This document shows positions 38,268-53,723 of a stretch of 64,000 bases of DNA, in pieces. Below the pieces are notes generated by a model. That model did not search any database. It saw nothing but the letters and a program-made list of their open reading frames with translations, and was not told the origin of the DNA. The position numbers were made by a program, and so were the translations under genes. Within the stretch, counting starts at the first letter, position 1. Each line of letters opens with the position of its first letter. Origin of the DNA: Trueperaceae bacterium (GTDB lineage Bacteria > Deinococcota > Deinococci > Deinococcales > Trueperaceae); NCBI GenBank assembly GCA_023954415.1, contig JAMLIB010000001.1, positions 80,001 to 144,000 on the forward strand, read 5' to 3'.

Positions 38268-38420
38268 CAGCCGAGCCTAGCACCGGCGCCGGCCGCGCCC
38301 GCTACCAGGGCGATACTTCGCGACTCGAGCCGTGGCGCAGCCTACGCAACGGGCAGCGGCGTTGCCACGGCGACCCGACACGGGCCGCCTGCCCGCCGGC
38401 CGTGGCGATACCATGGCGCC

Positions 38421-39065
38421 ATGCAGTTGGGACACGCCTTCTCGAGCGGCTGGGTGGAAGTGATCGCCGGCCCCATGTTCTCAGGCAAGAGCGAAGAGCT
38501 CATCCGCCGTGTCACGCGCGCCGTCATCGCCAGACAGCGCGTCCAGGTCTTCAAGCACGCCATCGACGACCGGTACGCCAAGCTGGCCGTCGCCTCCCAC
38601 GCGGGTCGCACGCTGGAGGCCGAACTAGTCGCCGGCTCCGCGGAGCTGCTCGCCCGCCTCGAGCCCGACACGCAGGTGGTCGCGATCGACGAGGCGCAGT
38701 TCCTCGACACCGGCGTGGTGAACGCCGTCCAGCGCCTGGCGGACGGCGGCACGCGCGTCATCGTGGCTGGGCTGGACCTCGACTTCCGCGGCGAGCCGTT
38801 CGGTCCCATGCCGGAGCTCATCGCGCGCGCCGAGGTCGTCGAGAAGCTCACGGCCATCTGCCGGTGCGGCCTTGCCGCCACCAGGACGCAACGTCTCATC
38901 CGTGGCAAGCCGGCCCACTACGACGACCCGACCGTGCTCGTCGGCGCGGCCGAGAGCTACGAGCCCCGCTGCCGCGCCTGCCACGTCATCCTCAGGGGCG
39001 TGCGGGAGGCGCCGCTCTTCGAGCTCGCCGCCGACGAGGTCGCCGCCGACGAGGTCGTCGGTTGA
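38421..39065 (+). CDS. tdk: Thymidine kinase (type II)
   Basis: A 214-residue cytosolic enzyme that phosphorylates thymidine in nucleotide salvage. The P-loop is [19 protein letters not shown], the DEAQF Walker-B-like motif is [11 protein letters not shown], and [15 protein letters not shown] forms the family loop. Two zinc cysteine pairs appear (CRCG and CRAC), with the substrate lasso [12 protein letters not shown]. The C terminus carries a short ADEVAADEV repeat. The ATG at 38421 follows TACCAT (38409-38414) by 6 nt, so the mRNA is probably leaderless. The stop TGA overlaps the TTG start of the next regulator gene as TTGA. Confidence 0.95.
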
Positions 39066-41611
39066 CCGACGGCGTATTCCCGCAGGGTGCCCGCCCATTG
39101 GAGGCGCGGCTGTGGGGACCCGCGGGTTTTCATCACGCTGGCGTAGAGGTCGTGCCTACCTCGCGCAAGGCTGTGGCCCTGCTCGCTTACCTGGCCGTCA
39201 CGGGGACGCCCGCCGGGCGCGAGGAACTGGCCACGCTCCTGTGGGGTCCCGGGAGGCTGGCCAACGTGAGGCAGGCCCTCTATACGTTGCGTAAGCTGCC
39301 TCGTTCTCGCGAATGGCTCTCGGATGGCGTGGAGGCAGTTAGTCTCAACGCCGTGACGGACCTCGGCGCCCTGGCCCGGGACGTGGCCGCCGTAGAGGGT
39401 CTAGTCGGGCAGCAGCTGTTGGCCGGCTTGGACGACCGATTCCCCACCCCGTTCGAGGAATGGCTGGCTGGCGAGCGGGTCAGGGCTGCTGTGACTGTGG
39501 GGCTGGCCCTCGTGGTGAGGGCAGAGCAGCTCGAGGCGAGCGGTTCGCCGGCCGCCGCGCTCGGTCTCGCCAAGCGCGCCCTCGCTCTCGATCCTTACAG
39601 TGGCGAGCGCCAGCGCCTGGCCATGCGTGTCGCCTACCTGGCCGGCGCAAGGGAGGAGGCGCTGGCCGGCTACGAAGTCTTCGCCGCACGCCTGAGGCGC
39701 GAGTTCGGGACCGATCCGGATGCGGCGACCGCCGACTTGGCTGCGCGTATCGAACGCGGCGAGACGGTGGCACCGCGCGTGACCGTCTCCACGCTAGCCG
39801 AGAGCGACCGGCGCACGCTCCAGGCGTTGGCCGTGGCGCGCGGCGGCCTCCGCCTCGACGGGCTCGCGCGCGTCTTGGGCCGCTCGGCGTTCGAGCTGAC
39901 CGAAGACCTGGCTCGCATGCAGGCCAGGGGCCTGTTGAGCGAGCATCAGGCGCTCGGGGACGAGCTACGGCGCTCCCTGCTCGATGCGGTCTCCGCGCCG
40001 CTGCGCCGTCTCCTCCACGAGCGCATCGCGGGTGTCATGCGCAACGACCCGAGTACCGATCAGGGGGTGCTGGCGCAACACCTCCTGGCTGCCGGAGAGA
40101 CCAGGGAGGCCGCGTTGCGCGCGTTGGCGGCCGCGGATGCGGCGCTCGGGCGCGGGCAGAACGAGGCGGCCGAGCGGCTCCTGTACCTCACGATGTGGGC
40201 CGCGCAGGACGAGTCGCGCACGCGTCTCCAGGCCTGCCTGGCACTCGAGAACTTGGCGGCCAAGCGTGCCGACATTGCTGCGCAGGAGGTTTACCTGGCC
40301 GAGGCCCGTCGACTTGCGTGGGAGCTTCAGGACGATCTGGCGCTGGCGGAAGGTGAAGTGCGCCTGGCTCGCTTGGAGCTCTCCAAGGGACGGGTGGGGG
40401 AGGCCCTCGAGGCCGCCCTCGAGGCTTTGCAGATCGCGCTGCGCCTCGGCGACGCCAGCCTGAGCGCCAGGGCGCGCAACGCGGTCGGGGCGGCGCACTT
40501 CTATGCCGGCGACATCGCGGGCGCCGAGGCGGCCTTCGCAGACAACTTGGATGGTTCCGACGAGGTCGAGAGTTTCAGGGCACATAACAACCTAGGCAGC
40601 ATCAGCGCGATGCTCGGACGCCTCGAGGACTCGTATCGCCACTTCGACGCGGCCCTTACGATCGGGCGGCGGCAGGGTAGTCTCCAGGACATCGCCGCCA
40701 CCCTCAACAACCTGGGCGCCACGGCGGAGCGGCTCGGCGACTACCAGCGCGCCGAGCGCCATTTCCGTGAGGGTAGTAGCCTCGCCCGCAAGGACGAGAA
40801 CCCGCAGCGCGAGGCGGAAGTGCTCCTGAACCTGGCTGTTGTGTACCTGCGCCAGGGGCAGCTCGGGCCTGCGTGGAACACCGTCGACGAGGTCGAACTG
40901 CTGATTGGTGAATTGTCCGATCGTCGCCTGATGTTGCGCGTCTCCGAGGTTCGCGGCGAGGTCCTGCGCGTATGCGGTCTACTCGAGGACGCGCTCGCGA
41001 AGATGATTGCCGCTCAGGAGATAGCGAAACGCATCGGTGACGAGAGGAAGCAGCGCTCGTTGTGGGCCCAGCGCCTGGCTGTCGAGGCGCGCAGTTCGGC
41101 CGCTGCGACGGCGGCGGCTACCGCAGCCGTCGCGAGCCTGGAGGCGAGTGGCCTCAAGGATGTCGCGCCGTGGCTGCGCCTGGAGCTTGCCGCCTGGGCC
41201 ACAGACGTTGCCGCGGCGCGTGTGCAGCTTGGGGCGTTGTCTCCCGAAGAACTGAAGAGTGCGCACCAGCGGCACCTGCGCGACCTGGTCATCATGCGCA
41301 TGAGCTTCTTGGCGGGCGCCGACGATGCCGCGATGTCCGAGGCGGCGGAGGCCATGAAACGCTTGAGGGTCGCTGGAGTCTTGGATGAGGCGGGGGCTAC
41401 GGCGGGCCGTGGTACATCCACCACCGTCGGTGGCCGTGTGGTAGAGCGCCCGAAGGCGCTCTACCTGGCGCGTCTCATTGCCGCCGTGGACGACCGGGCA
41501 GGCGCCCGGGCCGTGGCCGAGGGCGAACTGGTCGAGCAGGCAGCAGGGCTGCCCGTCCACCTTCGGGCAGCCCTGCTGCTGACCCCGGCCACGTGGCTGC
41601 CTGACCTGTAG
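39062..41611 (+). CDS. SARP-like regulator with TPR repeats, lacking a P-loop ATPase
   Basis: An 849-residue protein. Residues 10-100 form a winged-helix-like domain ([42 protein letters not shown]), and residues 100-235 a BTAD-like helical domain ([32 protein letters not shown]). Next comes the helical/winged region that usually follows an NB-ARC domain ([28 protein letters not shown]), but no Walker A motif exists. TPR repeats fill the rest ([43 protein letters not shown]). The start is TTG at 39062, overlapping the tdk stop, the only start giving the full winged domain. It lies upstream of the envelope cluster and may regulate it, an inference from position. Confidence 0.82.
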
Positions 41612-41718: not shown

Positions 41719-41801
41719 AAGCTCCCCCAAGTACCGACGGGCTGCCGCGGCTCGCCGGCTCCGGTTTGCGGGGCCGCTCGGCTGCCAAGTTTGGAGAGCA
41801 C

Positions 41802-44198
41802 ATGAACGTGTGGCAATCATCGGTGACAAGGGCCCGGCGCGGCCGTAGAGCGATCATCACGGCGTTCTTGACGTTCGGCCTGGCCTTCCCGGCCTCGCCG
41901 GTCGTGTTCGCCCAAGAGGCAGACCTGGCCCTCGCCAAGCTTGGCCGTCAGCGTCGCATGCTGGAAGCCGCTCTCGCGCACTCCCCGGGACACCAACCCG
42001 ACCTGGCTGGGCTCCGACTGGACGCCTCGTTCATGGAGCCGGAGGAACTGGGAGCACTCGTGGCCTCCGAGTACGGTTTCGAACTGTACCGGGGGCTCCT
42101 GAGGGGAGCAGACGGGGTGCACCTGTCGGGGGCGGGGAACTCCCTCGACCTCTCCGTCTTCCTCGCCTCGTTGCTGGGCGATGCCGGGTACGACACACGT
42201 GTAGCGGTGGGGTCATTGGCTCGCCCCGACGCCGAACGCCTCCTCGCCAGGGTCACCGAGGCCCGTGTCAGCGCGACCGGCCCCGTGAGCGAGCCCGCCA
42301 CGCTCGCGGAGCTCGCCGAGGCGGGCGGCGTGGCCGAGACGGAGTTGCGCGCGTACGGCGAGGCGCTGCTGGCCGTGAACCTCGCGGAGAGCACTCCCTT
42401 CCTGGAAGCGGCGGCGGCAGGCGACCTGATAGCGGCGACGTTGTCGGGGGCCGGGCTCATGCCGGTCGGCGAGGCTCACGAAGAGCTCGTAGCGGAAGCG
42501 AGCGAATACGCCTGGGTGGAGTACCGCCTCGGGACAGCGGACTGGACGCCGCTTCACCCCGCTTTCGGCGCGCACGCACGGCCGGTGGTCGTGGCCGACG
42601 AGTACCTGGAGGGCTCCGTGCCGGAGCGCCTCCAACATCGCCTACGTATCGAGATGGGGATCGAGCGGAAGCAGGGCGACGTCTTCAGCGAGGAGCTGAT
42701 CATGACGCCGTGGGAGCGGCCGCTGGCCAACGTTAACGGGGTGAACCTGTCTTTGGCCACCATGCCGCTTGGTCTCGGCCCTGACGCCGCCCTCGCAGAC
42801 CTGGCGGGGCGTTCGCCCGACTCCCTGTTCTTTGTCCCAATGTTCGGTGGCGAGCTGGCACCCGGCGCGCAGGCGTTCGACGTCATGGGCAACCTCCTCT
42901 CCCCGGAGGACGCGGCCTCGGCCATGGCTGGGGTCTTCCAGACCGTGGCCGGCAAGCTCAACTCCGCGGCTGGGGCCTTGGGGGGCCTCGGTGGCTCCGA
43001 ACCCACCGAGGAGCTACCCTTCGCCTTGGTGGCCCAGTTCGTGGACATCGTCCACGTGGCACCTGGTGGAGCCGAGCGGCGCCAGCGTCGTTACCTGTTC
43101 GACAGGCGCCCGGTTGGCGAGCGGATCGCAGGCGGCACAGCGCTGCGCGGCGAGGCCGACGTGGACGGGCTCGTGAGCACGATGGAGTTCATGGTCACGA
43201 CCTCGGCGCTGCCGTTCGGCTACCTGCAGAAGGAATTGACCGGCCAGGCCCTAGACTACGTCCTAGCGACGGAGCGGCTCGCGCAGGCAGGCGGCGAGAT
43301 GGACATGAACACCGCGGTGGCGGACTTGCGCCCCCGCGACCAGCTCTTGCTCATGGGCCTGTTCGAGGCGGTCGGCCATGGCCACGGCGGCGTGGCGTAC
43401 CGCCATGGCCCCACCGTCGTGGCGCTCAGACAGAGCTTGGAGCTGACGGGGCAACGAGCAGGCGAGTTAGGGGTCGATATCGTCTTCTCCGACAGGCGCT
43501 TCCTGAGAGAGGGAGAGGCCGGCATCGAGGGCGACTCGCGCCGGGCCATCTTGGCAGGTGCGTGGGACACGGCGGTTGAAAGGCAGTACCTACTCGGATT
43601 CACGCCCGATGTCAGGAGCGCCTACGACGCCTTCCAGGGGCCAACCCCGCGGCTCGGTGTGCTGGGTGTCGATGACGACCTAGCCACCGCAGGCGTGCCT
43701 GAGGCGGCGTGGCCTGCGCTGCGGCGCGATCTCGAAGCGGGGAACGTCGTCGTCTACTCGGCGGAGCTGGCCGACAGCGGCGCGCCCTTCAGCTGGTGGC
43801 GCGTGAACCGAAGCACGGGCGCTACCTTGGGCATCGGCTCGGACGGTCAGGGCGAGGCTGCGACGGAGTACCTCGTGGGGGCCATCCCGAGCCTGGCGTT
43901 CGCCGCTGCACTCTCCGTGCCGGGCGCCGCGCTATGCATGTCCGCCACCGGCGACGAGCAGTTGTTGTGCTTCTGCGATCTGGTAGTGGGGAACGTCATC
44001 TTCCTGAGCCTAGGTATCGCGATCGCCGGTGCCGTCGCCGGAGCGACCCTAATGGTCGAGCAAGCGGTCGGCGCCGCGTCGTTCCTCGTGGGCGACGTCG
44101 CCGTCGGCGTCATAGGCCTCTCGCCCCTCGGCGGTCCATGCTCCTGGGCGAACAGCGCCATGAGCGATAGGGGCGTGAGCCGGTGCGTGCTCAGTTGA
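41802..44198 (+). CDS. Secreted pseudo-transglutaminase-like protein with C-terminal membrane helices
   Basis: A 798-residue protein. A signal peptide (IITAFLTFGLAFPASPVVFAQ, cleaved after FAQ near residue 38) precedes a helical region. At about residues 108-140 is GAGNSLDLSVFLASLLGDAGYDTRVAVG, the shape of the transglutaminase-core active-site helix but with Ser in place of the catalytic Cys. A later strand, YAWVEYRLGTADWTPLHPAFG, has Tyr and His where the catalytic His and Asp usually stand. The central 350 residues are not recognised. Near the C terminus two hydrophobic spans (AIPSLAFAAALSVPGAALCM and VIFLSLGIAIAGAVAGATLM) flank a Cys-rich segment (LLCFCD). I regard it as a catalytically dead transglutaminase-fold envelope protein. 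ATG at 41802 with GGAGAG RBS. Confidence 0.7.
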   Translation: MNVWQSSVTRARRGRRAIITAFLTFGLAFPASPVVFAQEADLALAKLGRQRRMLEAALAHSPGHQPDLAGLRLDASFMEPEELGALVASEYGFELYRGLLRGADGVHLSGAGNSLDLSVFLASLLGDAGYDTRVAVGSLARPDAERLLARVTEARVSATGPVSEPATLAELAEAGGVAETELRAYGEALLAVNLAESTPFLEAAAAGDLIAATLSGAGLMPVGEAHEELVAEASEYAWVEYRLGTADWTPLHPAFGAHARPVVVADEYLEGSVPERLQHRLRIEMGIERKQGDVFSEELIMTPWERPLANVNGVNLSLATMPLGLGPDAALADLAGRSPDSLFFVPMFGGELAPGAQAFDVMGNLLSPEDAASAMAGVFQTVAGKLNSAAGALGGLGGSEPTEELPFALVAQFVDIVHVAPGGAERRQRRYLFDRRPVGERIAGGTALRGEADVDGLVSTMEFMVTTSALPFGYLQKELTGQALDYVLATERLAQAGGEMDMNTAVADLRPRDQLLLMGLFEAVGHGHGGVAYRHGPTVVALRQSLELTGQRAGELGVDIVFSDRRFLREGEAGIEGDSRRAILAGAWDTAVERQYLLGFTPDVRSAYDAFQGPTPRLGVLGVDDDLATAGVPEAAWPALRRDLEAGNVVVYSAELADSGAPFSWWRVNRSTGATLGIGSDGQGEAATEYLVGAIPSLAFAAALSVPGAALCMSATGDEQLLCFCDLVVGNVIFLSLGIAIAGAVAGATLMVEQAVGAASFLVGDVAVGVIGLSPLGGPCSWANSAMSDRGVSRCVLS

Positions 44199-44333: not shown

Positions 44334-44558
44334 GTGCGCGACCACGGCCGGCGGTTCCTGCTCAAGGTGTGGCGTGAGTCGAATGGCGGCGACGGGGAGC
44401 GTGGTTGGCGTGCCGCCCTGCGCGATGTCGTCGACGGCTCGCTCCGCGAGTTCTCTACCAAGGTGGAGCTGGTCGCTTACCTGACTGAGATCGACGAAGG
44501 GACATCGCTGGAACACGAGGTGCATGTCGTCCGAACGGACGTGGAGGTAGACGGATGA
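44334..44558 (+). CDS. Small conserved-looking protein of unknown function
   Basis: A 74-residue soluble protein starting at GTG 44334, supported by a GGAG sequence 7 nt upstream. The pattern FLLKVWRESNGGDGERGWRAALRDVVDGSLREFSTKVELVAYLTEI resembles a widespread uncharacterised small-protein family with the form F-x-(V/L)-R-I-W-x-E...W-R-G-x-(V/L)-x-(D/H)-V...F-x-(D/S)-L-x-x-L-x-x-F/Y-L; I recognise it only by this pattern. Longer in-frame sequence upstream (to 44205) overlaps the preceding hairpin and is not protein-like. It overlaps the next gene as ATGA. Confidence 0.65.
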   Translation: MRDHGRRFLLKVWRESNGGDGERGWRAALRDVVDGSLREFSTKVELVAYLTEIDEGTSLEHEVHVVRTDVEVDG

Positions 44559-45175
44559 AGAAGAAGTTCGCCCTTGGATGTTTGATAGTAGCCGTAGCTG
44601 TCCTGGTGGTAGGCGGTGGCGCCGCCTACTTCTACGTGATCAGGCCGCTCACGAACACCGTGAAGGCCGGTATGGAACTGCCAAGGCTCGCGGAGCTCGA
44701 CCAGAAGGTCAGCAACGATCGCGCCTTCGCGGCTCCTGTCGACGGCGAGCTGACTGCCGAGCAGGTGGACCGTTACCTGCAGGTGACCAGCGCCGTCATG
44801 AACGGCCTCAGGGGCAGGGCCGAAGAACTCACGAAGAAGTACGACGAGATCAGCTCTAGCGGCAACCCGGGCATCCGGCAGGTGCTCAACGCCTACGCGG
44901 ACATAATCAAGCTGGTAGTGCAGGCGAAGGAGTTGCAGGTTGATGCCCTCAACGCGGCGGGTTTCTCGCTCGCCGAGTACGACTGGGTGAGGCGTTCGGT
45001 CATCCAGGCGGCCGGCCACGCCTACGCCGAGATAGACCTGACGGCGTTGTCGAAGGGCGAGGTCGAGGCGGACGAGGCCGCGACGACGGGCGTCCCTGAA
45101 GCGAACGTCGAGATGGTCAAGCAGCACGTCGACGCAGTCGAGGAGTTCTTGCCGTTGGCGGCCTTCGGCCTCTAG
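44555..45175 (+). CDS. Membrane-anchored protein of unknown function
   Basis: A 206-residue protein. FALGCLIVAVAVLVVGGGAAYFYVI (residues 5-29) is an N-terminal anchor with positively charged MKKK before it, so the rest faces outward. The soluble part is helical (LTAEQVDRYLQVTSAVMNGLRGRAEELTKKYDEI, QVLNAYADIIKLVVQAKELQVDALNAAGFSLAEYDWVRRSV) and could form a coiled-coil bundle. I do not recognise a family. It overlaps the previous gene by ATGA and is 24 nt upstream of the giant vWA gene, so all belong to one transcription unit. Confidence 0.75.
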   Translation: MKKKFALGCLIVAVAVLVVGGGAAYFYVIRPLTNTVKAGMELPRLAELDQKVSNDRAFAAPVDGELTAEQVDRYLQVTSAVMNGLRGRAEELTKKYDEISSSGNPGIRQVLNAYADIIKLVVQAKELQVDALNAAGFSLAEYDWVRRSVIQAAGHAYAEIDLTALSKGEVEADEAATTGVPEANVEMVKQHVDAVEEFLPLAAFGL

Positions 45176-45199: not shown

Positions 45200-48100
45200 G
45201 TGGTCGCAAGTGACTTTACGAGCGGGGCAACGTGGCGCGGGTCGTGGTCCGGGTGGGGGAGGCGGCTCCCCCTCACGCTCTACTTGCTCGGTGCCTTGAC
45301 GATCGGTATGGCCTTTGCGCAGCAGTGCACCTATGAGTCGGAGCCGAACGACACCGTGGCCGCGGCCACGCGGCTCACGGACGCCGGACCGCAGCCGTTC
45401 GGACCGGACCGTTACAACGAGGTGAGCGCCAGGTGCCTGACGGGCGAGGCCGGCGGCACGGACGAGGACGTCTTCCGCTGGGAAGTCACCGAGCTCGACG
45501 CGCGGCACCGCTGGTCTTTCTCGCTGCAAGGCCCCGCCGACGGCTCGACGAGCGTCGTCCTGCTCCGCGCGAGCGCGGACGGTACCGTCGCCGAGTACGA
45601 GCGCGTGACGAGCCGAGGCGGCATAGCTGCGCTCTCCGGCGAGTTCCTCGTCGAGCCCGGCGCCTACTACCTCCGCGTCTCCGCGGCGGGTGGCGCGGGC
45701 GAGTACGTCGCCGACGTCACGCCCGTGATAGGCCTGCGCTACGGCGCCGGTGAGGACCGCTACGACGACGGCGGCGGTAGGCGCTACACGGGCGCGTTCG
45801 GCCTGTACGGCCCTGTAGCCGGTGAGCTCGTGCAGTCGTTCACCATCGACTCGGACGGCGCCAAGCGCAACTGGGGCGTGGAGCTGTGGGCGGCCCTCGG
45901 CACCGAGCCCCGGGTCGAGCTGGCGGGTCCGAGCGGCGTGGTGGCGCAGGGCACGGTCGACACGACCGGCCGCGCGCGCCTGCCCGGCCTCCGGCTCGCG
46001 GCGGGGGAGTACACGCTCCGCGTGCTCGGCGACAGCGGCATGGTCCGCTTGCGCCTCGAGTCACAAGGCGTGCCAGGCGACGGCGCGGCCGTCGAACCGA
46101 ACGACGAGTGGGGCACCGCCACGGTCTTCCCTTTGGGGAGCGAGATGCGCGCCACCGTCGGCGGGCGCGACTTCTACCGCATCGACGTCGCCGCCGCGGA
46201 GGCGGGCGTCTACGACCTCGCCTTCGAGGCGGACGCCGACCTGACGTACACGCTGCGCGACGAGGAGGGCAGGCCCCTCCTCACCTCGCGTTCGAGCCGA
46301 CCGAGGACGGGGCTGACGTTCGCGGAAGGCACCTATCAGCTCCTGGTCGAGGGCCGGGACGGCACCACGTACCGCATGGCCCTCAGGGCGGCCGCGGCGC
46401 CCCCCGCGGTCGGCGAGGTCGAGCCGAACGACTACCCCATCGCCGCCAGCCCGCTGCCCGCGGGCGACCAGGTGCGTGGGCGCCTCGACGGCAGCGAGAC
46501 GGACGTCTACAGCCTCGACGTCACGGGAACGGCCCAGCGCTTCCGCGTGCAGCTGGTCGGCGACTCCATCGACAGGCTGGCCGAGCTCAGCGTCGCGGGC
46601 GAGGTCCTCACCGAGGTGCGCGGCGCGCAGCGCCTGCGCCTCGACGACGTGGTCCTCCTGCCGGGCAGGCACTACTTCGAGGTGCGTGGCGCCGCCGGCG
46701 AGTACGCCCTGAAGGTCCTCTCGCTCGGTCCGGCCCAGGTGGGCGCCTCCTCGCCGCCGAGCGACCAGCCGCTCGCGCCGGCGGCCCAGGGGAGCGCGGG
46801 CCAGGACCCGGCCGCGGCCGCGGCCGCGTTGGACGGCGCCGTCCTCGAGGCCGGACCGCCGCCCCCGCCAGGCATCCTGGAGCTCGAGCCGAACGACGAC
46901 GCCAGCCGCGCCATGCGGCTCGTGCCGGGCGCCGTGCACGTCGGGCGCCTGACCGGCGACAGCGACGACTACTACCGCTTCTTCCTCGCGGAAGACCAGT
47001 ACGTGAGCGTCGAGGTCGTGCCCCCCACCGGCGGCTCCACCATCGACGTGTGGTTCGACGGCCTCGGCTGGGTGAGGTTCCCCGACGCAGCGCCCGGCAG
47101 CCCGGTGAGGCTCGAGCGCCTCTTCCTGGCGGGCGACCACACCTTCTACCTCGACGCTCCCGACGTCGAGACGGACGGCTACTACCAGCTCAGGTTCGAC
47201 CTGCTCGGGCGCCTCATGCCCGCCGTGGACGCCGAGCCGAACGACGACTACGCCACGGCCTCGCTCCTACCTGCCGAGCTCGAGTGGAGCGGCCACGTCG
47301 GCGAGTACTCCAACGACTACGACATCTACCGCCTGCCCGTGTTCGCGAGCGACACGACCGTCGAAGTGAGCGCCGACGGCGTGACCGCGCGGCTCGCGAT
47401 CGACCTGCGCGACGAGGCGAACACGCTCGACTTCGCCACGCGCGGCGACGCGCAGGCCGGTACGCCCTGGCGCGGCACGGTGCCGGCCGGGCGGCAGGCC
47501 TACCTGCGGCTGAGCGGCGCGACGACCTACCGGGTGGCCGTGACGTTCGGCAGCGCGCCGGACGGCGCCCAACTCCGGCCGCCGCGCGCCTCCGGCGCCG
47601 TGACGGTGTCGCTCACCGCGCCGACCGCCGAGCTGGCGGCGTTCTGGCACGAGGGTCAACTCCTCGACGCCACCGCACGCGTCGAGAACCGCGGCGCCGA
47701 GCCGCAGGAGCTGCGCCTGGAAGCGGCCAGCAGCCATGCGAACGTGCTGCTCGACTACGACCAGAGCCTGAGGCTGGCGCCCGGCGAGGCTCGCGACGTT
47801 CCGATACATGTGCGGGTGCCGAGCGACATGCGCGACGACCTGCCGCTCCGCATCGAGGTGGCTGCCGTCGGCGCCGCCGGTTCCGACGTCGCCGCGCTCG
47901 AGACCGCCCTGGCGTGCGACGCTCCATCCGTCTCAGCGTTCGACTACTGGCCGCTGCCGGCCACACTCCTCGGTAGGATGGACGTGCTGCGCACCAACTT
48001 CGGCGCGGCCATCTACGGCGACACGAGCTACGAGCGCCGCGACCTCGCGCTGATCGACGGGCGGGTCGGGCCGTCCGGCGGCGGCTACCTGGCTCTGGAC

Positions 48101-50620
48101 CACTCGCCCACCTACCGCCTGGCGGGCGACGCCCCGGTGACGCTGCTGGGCGCCACCCTCGACCCGCGTTCTGGAGCGCGAACGGGCGACTACCTGGCGG
48201 CGTTCAGGATCGAGACCTCGCTGGACGGCTCGAGCTTCACCACCGCTTACGAAGGCGTGCTCAAGGCGGCCGGCATCGAGCAGCCGTTCGTGTTCGAGAC
48301 GCCCGTCCGGGCGCGCTACGCGCGCCTCGTCATCGTAAGCAGTCAGGACAGGCGCGCCAACGGCTACGTCGGTGAGTGGAAGCTCCTCGCGGCGGACGTG
48401 GGCCTAGGCGAGCTGAACCTGGCCGCGCCAGAGAACGGCGGCCACGTCGTGCGCTCCGAGCCTTACATGAGCAGCTACGGCGCCCAGCTCCTGACGGCGG
48501 ACGGCCGCGCCTCGACCCTCGACCTGCGCGACACGGGGGCGTTCAGCTTCGTTATCGGCTTCAACGACGGTCGCGCCGCGCAGATCACACGGCTCGAGTG
48601 GCAGGAGACGGCCGACGCGCTCGCCAAGCCCGAGGCCATCTTCCCGTCGGTCACCGTCGAGGTGAGCCTGAGCGGGGGTGCGGGACCGTGGGCGCCGTTG
48701 GCCGACTGGACCTTCAAGCGGGACGCGACCGGCCTCGCCAAGCTCGAGCTGGACGCGCCCGCATGGGCGCGCTACCTGCGCCTCACCGGCAAGGCCGTCA
48801 CCGGGGCCGACGGCGCGCCCGGCCGCTACTACTACCCGCCGGACGCCGTGCGCGTGTTCGAGCGCCCGGCCGACGCCGACTACCGCTCCGCGCTCGCCGA
48901 GTGGGGGCCGAGCTCGCGCGAGGCCGTCTACGAGTACCTCAACCCGGTCAGCGTGGCGACGAGCGTCGCCGACGCCGGCAACGACACGCGCCAGTCCGCC
49001 TCGCCCCTGCGTTCGGGGGAGCAGGTCACCGGCACCGTCCAGGTGGCGGTGGACGAGGACTGGTACCGCCTCACCATCCCGGCGGGCGAGAACTACCTCG
49101 AGCTGAGCCTCGCCGGCGACCCGGCCATCGCCTACCGCTTCGAGCTCCTAGACGCCTCCGGCCACGCCGTGAGCTACGACGAGAAGGCGGACGGCGACGC
49201 GCTCACCCTCTCGTTGTTCGCCGCCCCCGGCGACTACTACCTCCACCTCTGGGAGCCGAAACGCACGGTCGTCTTCGCCTGGGACACGAGCGGCTCGGTC
49301 AGCCCGTACCTCGCCATCACGTACAACTCGCTCGCGAGCTTCGCGACGGACGTGGACGGCGAGCGCGAGGCCGTCCAGCTCCTCGCCTTCGACGACCCGA
49401 ACCCGCAGTGGCTGCTCCCGTTCTGGTCGAGCGACACGGCGCAGGTGCAGCGCTCCATCGTCGAGTTCGACCGCTCGGCCGACTCGAGTAACTCCGAGAC
49501 GGCGCTCCTCGCGGCCACCAAGGCGTTGGCCGATCGCGAGGGCACCCGCGCCATCATGCTCATGACCGACGCAGAGTCGGGCACCGACTACCTGACGCCG
49601 GAGCTGTGGAGCGCGTTCGAGCAGGTGCGCCCGCGCGTCTTCACGTTCGAGATCAGCTCCGCCGGCAACGACTACGCGCAGGACCTCATGCAGGACTGGG
49701 CCGACGTCAACTCCGGCAGGTACGCGCTGGCCGCGGGCGTGGGGGAGTTCGACGCCGGCTTCTCCCGCGCCTCGTGCCTGCTCAGGCGGCCCAAGCAGTA
49801 CACGGTCGCGCTCGCGACGCGCAGCCAGGCCCTGCCCGGCCCGGGCAGCCTCAGCGTGCGCGCCGCCGCCGGCGCCGCCCAGCCGGCCATCGAGGTCATC
49901 TTCGACGCTTCCGGCTCGATGGGTCGCGAGCTCCCGAGCGGCGAGCAGCGCATCACCGCAGCCAAGCACGCCCTCACCACCCTCGTGAACGAGGTGTTGC
50001 CGGAAGGCGCGCCGTTCGCGCTGCGCGCCTTCGGGCACATAGCGCCGTCGTCGTGCGAGACGCGCCTCGACGTGCCCCTCGCCCCCTTGGACCGCGCCAA
50101 GGCCCTCGCGGCCGTGCAGGCGATCGCGCCCAAGCTCCTGTCGCAGACGCCCATCGCCGACTCGCTTGCGGCCGTCCCGCAGGACCTCGCGCAGGCCGGC
50201 GGCGCCCGCACCGTCATCCTCATCACGGACGGCGCCGAGTCCTGCGGCGGCGACCCGGTCGCTGCCGTGCGGGAGGCGCGCAGCAAGGGGCCGCTCGATC
50301 TCGCCATCGTCTCCCTCGGCCTCGAGCCGGACGCCCTCGCTGTCTTCGAGAAGCTCGCGGCGGACGTGGGGGCGAGTTACGTGGATGTCGGCTCCTACGA
50401 GGCGCTCTCCGAGGCCGTGGCGGAAGCCCTCAACCCAGCTTTCGAGGTCTACGACGCCGCAACGGGAGAACTGGTCGCACGCGGGCGCGTCGGCAGTGAG
50501 CCGGTGAGCCTGGAGATGGGCGTGTACGACGTCAGCGTCCTGGTCGCGCCCGTCCAGGAGTTCAAAGGCGTGCGTGTGCCCGGCGAGAAGGACGTGACGC
50601 TCACCCTCCGGGCCGACTGA
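45200..50620 (+). CDS. Giant secreted protein with PPC repeats, discoidin-like region and two vWA domains
   Basis: An 1806-residue exported protein; signal RLPLTLYLLGALTIGMAFAQQ. At least five bacterial pre-peptidase C-terminal (PPC) beta-sandwich repeats start with an EPND motif at about residues 47, 299, 408, 563 and 678, with a sixth near 1260 (NDTRQSASPL). Residues about 850-930 look like an alpha-mannosidase/CARDB-like Ig repeat, and 985-1080 like an F5/8-type C discoidin sandwich (IETSLDGSSFTTAYEG, RYARLVIVSSQDRR). Two vWA-like domains follow: MIDAS DTSGS at about 1357 with LMTDAESG, and DASGS at about 1564 with ILITDGAESCGGD. No protease domain is seen. The GTG start has an AGGAGG RBS. 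It may be a metal-dependent adhesin or scaffold. Confidence 0.85.
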   Translation: MVASDFTSGATWRGSWSGWGRRLPLTLYLLGALTIGMAFAQQCTYESEPNDTVAAATRLTDAGPQPFGPDRYNEVSARCLTGEAGGTDEDVFRWEVTELDARHRWSFSLQGPADGSTSVVLLRASADGTVAEYERVTSRGGIAALSGEFLVEPGAYYLRVSAAGGAGEYVADVTPVIGLRYGAGEDRYDDGGGRRYTGAFGLYGPVAGELVQSFTIDSDGAKRNWGVELWAALGTEPRVELAGPSGVVAQGTVDTTGRARLPGLRLAAGEYTLRVLGDSGMVRLRLESQGVPGDGAAVEPNDEWGTATVFPLGSEMRATVGGRDFYRIDVAAAEAGVYDLAFEADADLTYTLRDEEGRPLLTSRSSRPRTGLTFAEGTYQLLVEGRDGTTYRMALRAAAAPPAVGEVEPNDYPIAASPLPAGDQVRGRLDGSETDVYSLDVTGTAQRFRVQLVGDSIDRLAELSVAGEVLTEVRGAQRLRLDDVVLLPGRHYFEVRGAAGEYALKVLSLGPAQVGASSPPSDQPLAPAAQGSAGQDPAAAAAALDGAVLEAGPPPPPGILELEPNDDASRAMRLVPGAVHVGRLTGDSDDYYRFFLAEDQYVSVEVVPPTGGSTIDVWFDGLGWVRFPDAAPGSPVRLERLFLAGDHTFYLDAPDVETDGYYQLRFDLLGRLMPAVDAEPNDDYATASLLPAELEWSGHVGEYSNDYDIYRLPVFASDTTVEVSADGVTARLAIDLRDEANTLDFATRGDAQAGTPWRGTVPAGRQAYLRLSGATTYRVAVTFGSAPDGAQLRPPRASGAVTVSLTAPTAELAAFWHEGQLLDATARVENRGAEPQELRLEAASSHANVLLDYDQSLRLAPGEARDVPIHVRVPSDMRDDLPLRIEVAAVGAAGSDVAALETALACDAPSVSAFDYWPLPATLLGRMDVLRTNFGAAIYGDTSYERRDLALIDGRVGPSGGGYLALDHSPTYRLAGDAPVTLLGATLDPRSGARTGDYLAAFRIETSLDGSSFTTAYEGVLKAAGIEQPFVFETPVRARYARLVIVSSQDRRANGYVGEWKLLAADVGLGELNLAAPENGGHVVRSEPYMSSYGAQLLTADGRASTLDLRDTGAFSFVIGFNDGRAAQITRLEWQETADALAKPEAIFPSVTVEVSLSGGAGPWAPLADWTFKRDATGLAKLELDAPAWARYLRLTGKAVTGADGAPGRYYYPPDAVRVFERPADADYRSALAEWGPSSREAVYEYLNPVSVATSVADAGNDTRQSASPLRSGEQVTGTVQVAVDEDWYRLTIPAGENYLELSLAGDPAIAYRFELLDASGHAVSYDEKADGDALTLSLFAAPGDYYLHLWEPKRTVVFAWDTSGSVSPYLAITYNSLASFATDVDGEREAVQLLAFDDPNPQWLLPFWSSDTAQVQRSIVEFDRSADSSNSETALLAATKALADREGTRAIMLMTDAESGTDYLTPELWSAFEQVRPRVFTFEISSAGNDYAQDLMQDWADVNSGRYALAAGVGEFDAGFSRASCLLRRPKQYTVALATRSQALPGPGSLSVRAAAGAAQPAIEVIFDASGSMGRELPSGEQRITAAKHALTTLVNEVLPEGAPFALRAFGHIAPSSCETRLDVPLAPLDRAKALAAVQAIAPKLLSQTPIADSLAAVPQDLAQAGGARTVILITDGAESCGGDPVAAVREARSKGPLDLAIVSLGLEPDALAVFEKLAADVGASYVDVGSYEALSEAVAEALNPAFEVYDAATGELVARGRVGSEPVSLEMGVYDVSVLVAPVQEFKGVRVPGEKDVTLTLRAD

Positions 50621-50693: not shown

Positions 50694-51800
50694 GTGCCGA
50701 AGATATACTTGGGTGAGGCCATCGGCCTCGTCATGAAGACCCTACCGCTCGTGTGGGTGCGGCTTGGAAGCTACCTCGTGCTCGGCCTGGTCTTGGGGGC
50801 GTACGCCGGCGTGTTCGCCGGGATCGGCTGGCTGCTCGCCAAGCTGTGGGCGCCGCTCGGTGTCATCCTGTTCCTCGCCGCCGTCGGTGGGGCCTTCTGG
50901 ATAGTCGACCTCGCCGGCCGCTACTGGTTCCACCTATTGCGGGCGGCGCATACTGCTGTGCTCACGGAGTTCATCACTACCGGCAAGGGGCCGTCCGAAG
51001 GCCAGCTCGCGTACGGTCGGCAGCAGGTGACGAGCCGTTTCAAGGACACGTCCATCCTCTTCGGGGTCGCCCTCCTCGTTGGCGGGGTCGTCAAGTTCAT
51101 CGTGCGAACCTTCACCAGGATCGCCTCCATCCTGCCGCTGCCAGGTGTCGACTCGCTCGGCAGGTTGCTCGAGCGCGTGGCCGTACTCAGCACCACCTAC
51201 GTCGACGAAGCCGTCCTGTCGCGCGCCTACGCGAAGCGTGAGCAGAACGTGTGGGCCGTGGCACAAGAGGGCGTGGTGCTCTACGCGCAAGCGTGGAAGC
51301 CCATCCTGGCCAACGCCGTGGTGCTCGCGCTCCTGAGCTACGCGGAGTTCGTGCTGTTCCTCGTCGTCCTCGGCTTGCCGGCGCTCGCCGTAGGGGCCGC
51401 TGTGCCGAGCCTGGGGCCGACCCTCGGCGTCGCTGCTCTCATAGGCGCCTGGATGCTCAAGCTGGCGCTGTCGGACGCCGTCGCCCTGGCGGCCACGCTG
51501 CTCGCTTACCACCGCACCACGGCCGGCATGGTGCCGGACCCGTCTTGGGTGGCCAAGCTCGAAGGGGCGAGTGCCAAGTTCCGCGAGCTCGGTGACAAGG
51601 CGCTCGCGGCGGCGCGGCGGCCCGCGGCGGCCGATGCAGCCGCGGCGGCTGATCCCAGCATCCCGTCGGTCGCCGTTACGCCAGGAGCCGCTGCTCTGGT
51701 AGCGGAGGCCGAGGCCCCGGAGCGGGATATTGGGGCACCGACGCATGCCGGCGCCCCGACAGTCCCGGACGACCGGGCGACGGACGGTGCCGTCGGCTAG
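50694..51800 (+). CDS. Polytopic membrane protein of unknown function
   Basis: A 368-residue protein with about six TM helices: LGSYLVLGLVLGAYAGVFAGIGWLL, LGVILFLAAVGGAFWIVDLAG, ILFGVALLVGGVVKFIV, PILANAVVLALLSYAEFVLFLVVLGLPALAVGAAV and a later pair. An amphipathic or re-entrant segment lies between (IASILPLPGVDSLGRLLERV). The last 85 residues are a disordered Ala-rich cytoplasmic tail. It is not a family I recognise, though the topology resembles uncharacterised DUF4013/glycerophosphoryl-like permease fragments. GTG start with AAGGAAG RBS. It is the last gene of the envelope cluster and its TAG stop is part of the next gene's -10 box. Confidence 0.75.
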   Translation: MPKIYLGEAIGLVMKTLPLVWVRLGSYLVLGLVLGAYAGVFAGIGWLLAKLWAPLGVILFLAAVGGAFWIVDLAGRYWFHLLRAAHTAVLTEFITTGKGPSEGQLAYGRQQVTSRFKDTSILFGVALLVGGVVKFIVRTFTRIASILPLPGVDSLGRLLERVAVLSTTYVDEAVLSRAYAKREQNVWAVAQEGVVLYAQAWKPILANAVVLALLSYAEFVLFLVVLGLPALAVGAAVPSLGPTLGVAALIGAWMLKLALSDAVALAATLLAYHRTTAGMVPDPSWVAKLEGASAKFRELGDKALAAARRPAAADAAAAADPSIPSVAVTPGAAALVAEAEAPERDIGAPTHAGAPTVPDDRATDGAVG

Positions 51801-53075: not shown

Positions 53076-53723
53076 CTAGAACTTCGCGCGCAGGGCGGCG
53101 ACCACCTGGCTGACGGCCGAGTTGGCCGCCTGCGCGAAGAGCGGGCCGACGGTCGGGTCGTCGTACCTGACGTTGCCGGCCAACGGCACGTTGTTGATGT
53201 TGACGTTCGGGCTGCTCGCCTCGCCCGCGCCCTTCATGGAGACGACGACGACGCCCGTGATGATGTCCGTGGCGCGCACGTCGACCTCGATCTGGGCCTT
53301 GGTCTGGCCGAGGGTCACGCCGAAGAGGCTGCCGCCAGGTCGGGCGACCGTGGCGCGCGTGACCGTGCCGGTCACGACGTAGCCGGCGCCGGCGGCCTTG
53401 GCGAGGCCGATCGGGTCGAGCGACTCGATGCCCTGCTTCTCGATGAGGGTCTGCAGCTCGCTGCGCTCGACGACCACGTAACAGCCGGACTCCTTGAGGA
53501 GCGTGATCAGGCGCGCGGTCGCGGCCTCCTCGACCCCGACGACGCTGACGCCGCCGCCCTGGCTGGAGGTGTTCTCGAAGTCGACCACCGCCACCGTCGG
53601 GATCGGGTTCGACACGCACGCGGCGGGCTGCTCCGCGGACTCCGTTGTGGGGGCGCAGGCGCCGAGCGCGACGAGCGCGGCCAAGGTTGCGACGAGCACG
53701 GCTAGACGGGTCCTACGTTGCAT
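53076..53723 (-). CDS. CsgG/HfaB-like lipoprotein
   Basis: A 215-residue lipoprotein. The signal LAVLVATLAALVALGACAPT has an LGAC lipobox. The mature part follows the CsgG-type fold: TVAVVDFENTSSQ (first strand), AATARLITLLKESGCYVVVERSELQTLIEKQGI, AGAGYVVTGTVTRA and VDVRATDIITGVVV. CsgG forms an outer membrane pore for curli export, but short CsgG-like lipoproteins without the transmembrane hairpins are often periplasmic and of unknown role; the hairpins are not evident here. AGGAGGAG lies 8 nt upstream of the ATG. It is monocistronic between a terminator and a 176-bp gap. Confidence 0.83.
   Translation of the reverse strand: MQRRTRLAVLVATLAALVALGACAPTTESAEQPAACVSNPIPTVAVVDFENTSSQGGGVSVVGVEEAATARLITLLKESGCYVVVERSELQTLIEKQGIESLDPIGLAKAAGAGYVVTGTVTRATVARPGGSLFGVTLGQTKAQIEVDVRATDIITGVVVVSMKGAGEASSPNVNINNVPLAGNVRYDDPTVGPLFAQAANSAVSQVVAALRAKF

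Follow-up and report, generated by a model that had tools for sequence, protein, structure and literature searches.

The window (the whole stretch of 64,000 nt analysed here, from contig JAMLIB010000001.1 of a Trueperaceae bacterium) carries a gene for a predicted pseudo-transglutaminase (TG) and, downstream of it on the same strand, a gene for a giant secreted protein. The features considered below are as follows, with the evidence for each in brackets.

38402..41611, + strand: BTAD/TPR regulator-like protein, directly upstream of the TG gene (syntenic in close relatives)
41802..44198, + strand: pseudo-transglutaminase, 798 aa, with an N-terminal hydrophobic signal/anchor segment, a TG-fold domain, a long conserved middle region and a hydrophobic Cys-bearing C-terminal tail
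41988..42731, + strand: predicted transglutaminase-superfamily domain, residues 63-310 (AlphaFold pLDDT; VIA-align matches to LapG, TglA, PeiW, NATs and TG3)
42141..42143, + strand: Ser114 at the catalytic Cys position (sequence, alignment, profile)
42507..42509, + strand: Tyr236 at the catalytic His position (sequence, alignment, profile, tree)
42555..42557, + strand: His252 at the catalytic Asp position (sequence, alignment, profile)
43872..44132, + strand: glycine-rich hydrophobic stretch near the C-terminus (residues about 691-777); Cys712 and Cys723/725 are conserved (hydropathy and alignment; pLDDT low)
44555..45175, + strand: small protein, 206 aa, with one N-terminal hydrophobic stretch (by eye)
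45200..50620, + strand: giant secreted partner of 1806 aa; Pfam domains PPC, F5/8 type C and two vWA, the latter with DxSxS MIDAS motifs; signal segment (by eye)
50694..51800, + strand: membrane protein (no Pfam match), found 3' of the giant also in G001, G003 and G004
53076..53723, - strand: CsgG-family lipoprotein (Pfam CsgG, E 1.2e-18), which several Trueperaceae loci have close to TG or giant

The TG reading frame opens with an ATG at 41802, with GGAGAG upstream, and runs for 798 codons to a stop at 44196-44198; a TTG at 41766 is a mechanically possible alternative start. Signal and membrane segments were assigned from hydropathy and by eye. A hydrophobic segment lies near the N-terminus (hydropathy windows from residue 17) and further windows start at residues 691-698, 719-735 and 755-759 in the C-terminal part, where the cysteines are also found (712, the first in the protein, then 723, 725, 780 and 795). 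The initial annotation had the protein fixed to the envelope by C-terminal helices. The hydrophobic segments are indeed present and make a membrane tether plausible, and the C-terminal stretch is probably one, but residues 729-798 have a pLDDT <50 in the full-length AlphaFold model. From hydropathy only, we infer that the protein would be both exported and tethered. The tail is divergent among homologues. Glycine-zipper-like hydrophobic stretches and a C..CC pattern were seen at the end of pseudo-transglutaminases such as those of L007, L009, L062 and L083.

No significant match to the full 798-aa protein was found in Pfam, NCBIfam, PHROGs or PADLOC, and the best Pfam match, HRDC (E 0.12), was judged to be due to chance. 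The PADLOC and PHROG searches thus gave no support for a defence or phage family. No relative was found in the plasmid collection searched, and a pattern search of viral contigs returned 44 matches, none of them a relative.

Two models of the protein were obtained with AlphaFold. In the full-length model (27 aligned rows, consisting of the window protein and sequences of related loci) the mean pLDDT is 75.4, with block means >90 at residues 71-150 and 201-310 and of 58-73 at residues 151-200. A Foldseek search with this model gave hits of mixed kind (best E 0.012) and the domain was therefore folded and searched alone (265 aa, 29 rows, mean pLDDT 88.0); Foldseek then placed DRC7-type chains and LapG on top, with 1 match <E 0.001. 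VIA-align ranked LapG first with either model: at Z 10.5 for the full-length protein, with PeiP, DRC7-type axonemal chains, NATs, TG3, TgpA and Rad4 lower, and at Z 10.7 (133 aligned, rmsd 3.5) for the domain, followed by TglA (10.4), PeiW (9.8) and, at Z about 6-8, NATs and transglutaminases. The 50 VIA-align matches listed for the domain model consist entirely of cysteine proteases, transglutaminases, NATs/amide synthases and DRC7-type axonemal assemblies. A PDB search with the profile of the protein's own clade returned coiled-coil rows and weak DRC7-type rows. Both predicted models contain the papain-like alpha+beta core of the transglutaminase-like superfamily and a different fold was not predicted; as modelled, the domain is transglutaminase/LapG/NAT-like.

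The initial annotation had also claimed that all three catalytic positions of this fold are replaced, with Ser for Cys in GAGNSLDL (residues 111-118) and Tyr and His for His and Asp on a later strand; the models and profile alignments bear this out. Most homologous domains have either Tyr at the catalytic His position, as in the window protein (Tyr-type), or His (His-type). In a profile of 16 His-type domains retaining His and Asp, GN-S-LD aligned to GN-C-FD in solved DRC7 and HwWve..gwvdLDP to HAWVEY..GWLSVDP in solved TgpA (E 0.01 and 0.015 for DRC7 and TgpA, weak individually), and the same profile aligned over 188 columns to that of the window protein's clade (hhalign E 2e-38). Through these alignments Ser114 falls on the Cys of DRC7, and Tyr236 and His252 fall on the His and Asp of TgpA, so that Ser114-Tyr236-His252 stands where active transglutaminases and cysteine proteases have the Cys-His-Asp triad. 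Transglut_core (PF01841) does not match the window protein; at E <=0.01 it matches 16 of 30 Tyr-type domains and 14 of the 16 in the His-type set.

Ser114 can be ruled out as a nucleophile, because Ala is commoner than Ser at the Cys position (24 versus 11 in 35 Tyr-type rows). A triad elsewhere in the domain is ruled out by the lack of cysteine: 44 of the 45 Tyr-type rows aligned lack cysteine at residues 60-320, and in none of the relatives inspected was the triad seen elsewhere. Within these 45 rows, which were chosen for Tyr at the His position and have a mean column identity of 30-41%, Tyr96, Asn113, Asp116, Trp238 and Trp248 are invariant and His252 is kept in 42, two of the three exceptions being L187 and L190, which are distant domains within giant frames. 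Conservation is equally high in His-type rows for Asp116 and, mostly, for Asn113. Judged from its sequence, the window protein cannot perform standard transglutaminase or cysteine-protease chemistry.

The family is present in 12 of 61 genomes (the window's own, which has two paralogues, and relatives) and, with the paralogue as query, in 13 of 111 genomes of the class; the match in G030 is interrupted by a stop codon. A pattern scan of assembled contigs gave 36 loci, which beyond Trueperaceae belong to Gammaproteobacteria, Rhodobacteraceae, Burkholderiaceae, Desulfobulbaceae, Chloroflexi and Acidobacteria (taxa as annotated); environmental carriers include Defluviimonas sediminis (L069) and Marinicella (L077). 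Since the pattern demanded Ala or Ser at the Cys position, these loci are uninformative on the loss of Cys, and the count of that loss was restricted to rows from whole-genome searches. In the order of Wenzhouxiangella (G118), matches were found in 48 of 299 genomes drawn from a larger group (loci from the best matches plus two more standalone ones, L199 and L200; at most three candidates scored per genome), and many of them are the domain alone inside frames >1000 aa.

The 61 aligned rows show a pattern that is not due to chance: they comprise 35 Tyr-type, 22 His-type and one Val-Asp row (L035), and three are too short to read. At the Asp position, the 35 Tyr-type rows have His (34) or Gln (1), and all 21 readable His-type rows have Asp. 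Thirteen further standalone rows divide into 9 with Ala/Ser-Tyr-His and 4 with His-Asp, 3 of the latter having His at the Cys position. In L200 the first and second catalytic positions read Thr-Gly and the third is unreadable. In 11 distant rows the Cys position is occupied by Asp (10) or Ala (1) and the His and Asp positions are mostly altered. Cys at the catalytic position was found in none of the 54 readable rows that were found independently of that residue (30 + 24). A third state of the dead site was seen in L175-L177, which are His-type with GSHLD, that is with His at the Cys position, and have a giant adjoining.

A tree of 67 rows was built with the three catalytic columns masked; rows <400 residues, the distant L180-L190 and the near-copy L041 were left out. 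The Tyr/His label changes once on this tree (42 Tyr versus 24 His, 1 uncounted), with an SH-aLRT of 98 for the split, and none of 500 shuffles was as low in label changes. The 42 rows behind the change have Tyr-His in 41 cases and Tyr-Gln in one, and Tyr-type rows span five phyla (taxa as annotated). Both replacements, His to Tyr and Asp to His, lie on one branch of it; a single event cannot prove co-evolution or mutual dependence. Retention of Tyr-His over such wide divergence argues against plain decay, and a random or dying pseudogene is ruled out, as homologues from different phyla are full-length, with an intact frame and these same residues retained. Neither this family-wide loss with its two-step history nor the giant secreted partner next door had been noticed in the initial annotation.

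MIDAS DxSxS motifs are present in 21 of 21 first vWA domains of the giants and in 20 of 20 readable second ones. A giant lies <=2.6 kb from the TG gene in 30 of 32 Tyr-type loci outside Trueperaceae (20 of 22 contig-scan loci, by giant profile search, and 10 of 10 further loci); the two loci without it, L068 and L078, sit at contig ends. The giant of L088 is shorter (1040 aa). Two giant-matching pieces flank the single TG gene of L172, which two giants may therefore surround. In 25 mapped pairs (Trueperaceae and His-type included) the two genes are on the same strand in 22, with TG first in 16 and the giant first in 6. TG and giant distances are correlated over 26 pairs (r 0.62; none of 2000 permutations as high), with nearest relatives concordant in only 8 of the 26. 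As raw counts, with shared ancestry still in them, the same 12 of the 61 genomes carry the TG family and a full-length giant, whose match reaches far past a single vWA domain (12 others match a single vWA domain of the giant only), and a class-wide search at E 1e-30 found the giant in 13 of 111 genomes, exactly those with the TG family. One of these, G109, was added by the class-wide search, and its giant was predicted by its TG gene.

The pairing does not require the Tyr-His pair, since five His-type genes also have a giant adjoining (L014/L108, L175-L177 and L199). Among the eight other genes of standalone size outside Trueperaceae (L093, L175-L178, L194, L199 and L200), none with the Tyr-His pair, a giant lies beside four (L175-L177 and L199) and was not found in the DNA around L093, L178, L194 and L200. 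No significant giant was found at L089-L092 and L094-L096 (best E 1e-4, L095), where L089, L091, L094 and L096 are too short to tell. Close pairs are few within Trueperaceae: a giant was near by in 1 of the 6 contig-scan loci (L065), and only 5 of 12 genomes (the window, G001, G003, G010 and G035) showed the two genes near each other, although contig ends may hide further close pairs, for example in G009. G005 has a giant 89% identical to that of the window; only His-type paralogues and no Tyr-type gene were found in this genome. The regulator-giant-CsgG locus is kept in G005 (L155) and in G004 (L156) without the TG gene and the small gene for a protein with a hydrophobic stretch that accompanies it in the window, and in G004 the Tyr-type gene lies on a different contig. 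These loci reflect either natural losses or ancestral absence, and they indicate that TG and giant need not touch.

Inactive transglutaminases are already known; for the standalone family, the Tyr-His pair and the giant partner, a literature search, mostly outside subscription journals, found no description. The fold has binding or structural roles in Rad4/XPC, band 4.2 (EPB42) and DRC7, which are eukaryotic proteins of other architectures; the aligned DRC7 chains keep Cys. EPB42 has been called inactive (PMC10318531). In RHS polymorphic toxins, inactive transglutaminase domains have been proposed to anchor by peptide binding (Zhang et al. 2012, PMC3482391). As far as that account goes, they resemble the window protein in having an exported N-terminal TG fold with the triad lost behind a signal/TM segment (assigned here by hydropathy). 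The window protein differs in standing alone (about 800 aa), in its hydrophobic tail and in having its giant vWA partner encoded separately, and its family has Ala/Ser-Tyr-His at the catalytic positions, whereas 10 of the 11 distant rows have Asp at the Cys position. Two of these distant rows, L180 and L181, were extended to their genes (L201 and L202), which carry Pfam RHS_repeat and Transglut_core. Another arrangement is seen in L090, L092 and L095, where giant proteins that carry PKD, invasin/Ig-like, SdrD-B, LTD or OmpA-barrel domains contain, in their N-terminal part, a Cys-less His-type domain matching PF01841; Pfam RHS repeats were not found in them. Here the TG domain is fused to the giant, whereas in the window system it is paired with one.

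Other published systems concern the envelope. A membrane-bound inactive transglutaminase that faces the periplasm shares one genetic pathway with exported proteins (PMC12096838), and the work on RloB likewise indicates that exported proteins can be affected genetically by an inactive membrane transglutaminase (PMC12239564). The former, as described, has seven TM helices and shares its operon with genes for an aspartic protease and an ATP-grasp protein, for which no Pfam match was found in the window; RloB-type proteins also have seven TM helices, in contrast to the one N-terminal and two or three C-terminal hydrophobic stretches of the window protein. LapG and DvhG (BTLCP) are periplasmic proteases that cut giant adhesins, which can carry a vWA domain, by means of a working Cys-His-Asp triad and a calcium site (PMC13090378). 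LapG is both the best fold match and the nearest functional parallel, although the window protein is without its triad. MoxR-vWA systems are on record as well (PMC8195603).

Given the replaced triad and the frequent position of the family beside a giant secreted adhesion-like protein, a role as binder or anchor is more likely for the window protein than enzymatic activity. A binding or structural protein, as proposed in the initial annotation, is the best reading and is supported; the binding part, with direct contact between TG and giant, use of the groove and adhesion, is what we infer. The explanation we favour, at somewhat better than an even chance, is that an exported, membrane-tethered pseudo-transglutaminase binds the giant and retains it at the envelope. 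Under this proposal, Cys would have been absent family-wide when, on a single branch, Tyr-His replaced His-Asp, to be retained from then on; the former substrate groove would bind a peptide or segment of the giant PPC/F5-8C/double-vWA protein; the hydrophobic tail would hold the complex at the envelope; and the two MIDAS sites of the giant would bind metal and an external ligand, for adhesion or surface retention. A membrane-tethered binder of this kind is consistent with the fold, with the residues kept, with the pairing, with the occurrence of the Cys-less domain inside giant surface-type proteins and with the published peptide-anchor idea.

The pairing could also have another cause. TG and giant may be co-inherited without binding each other, TG holding a different ligand such as peptidoglycan peptides; many Trueperaceae TG copies have no giant in the surrounding DNA, and the fold serves varied ligands (LapG, PeiW, NATs). 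We regard this as unlikely in view of the pairing and correlated divergence across phyla, which persist despite flips in gene order, and of the identical distribution of the two families over 13 of 111 genomes. More doubtful still is an enzyme with a rebuilt site, in which the old cleft would hold a new site, catalytic or for a ligand or metal, made up of Tyr236, His252, Asn113 and Asp116 and perhaps Tyr96/Arg101. Papain-like enzymes whose residues have been swapped or have moved do exist (PMC10318531), and the invariance of Tyr96, Asn113, Asp116, Trp238 and Trp248 and the near-invariance of His252 at so low a column identity would suit such a site; against it, the almost uniformly cysteine-free domain has no conserved Cys or Ser nucleophile, and the conservation of Asp116 and mostly of Asn113 in His-type rows is not specific to a new site.

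Quite improbable, in our estimate, is that the protein forms the trunk of a polymorphic-toxin-like protein, with the pseudo-transglutaminase as the anchor outside the cell and the glycine-rich Cys-bearing tail as effector. In favour of this are the divergence of the tail and the occurrence of more distant versions of the domain inside RHS proteins of about 3500 aa (L201 and L202), of the kind described in PMC3482391. However, neither RHS repeats nor a C-terminal toxin domain was found by Pfam in the 798 aa of the window protein, which is also without PADLOC or PHROG matches, and the C..CC pattern is kept in many tails across phyla.

Returning to the membrane-tethered binder of the giant, a more far-reaching version can be put forward tentatively, as possible rather than probable: one ancient double replacement in an already Cys-less fold, near-invariant as Tyr-His in five phyla, would have rebuilt the old site for recognition (or for a new catalytic or metal role) in the service of the MIDAS-bearing giant, giving a two-protein adhesion system with the pseudo-enzyme as receptor. 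What appeared as a one-gene curiosity becomes a testable two-gene system, found in Deinococcota, Alpha- and Gammaproteobacteria, Burkholderiaceae, Desulfobulbaceae, Chloroflexi and Acidobacteria (taxa as annotated). It is also a clear example of an enzyme fold that died step by step and was reused. Binding of the giant by the pseudo-enzyme, if real, would explain the role of Cys-less bacterial transglutaminases, so far a suggestion (PMC3482391).

The CsgG-family lipoprotein is a possible export or outer-membrane accessory of the module. Its gene adjoins the giant in G010 (L108) and sits between TG and giant in G035 (L165). The true start of the BTAD/TPR regulator-like gene is probably later than that of its open frame, because the frame overlaps the preceding gene, which a motif suggests to encode thymidine kinase. 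A 34% relative of the membrane protein at 50694..51800 was seen near the TG homologue of a Burkholderiaceae MAG (L068). Small lipoprotein-like genes, mutually related, flank the TG-giant pair in L063, L066 and L067 and may encode a further partner.
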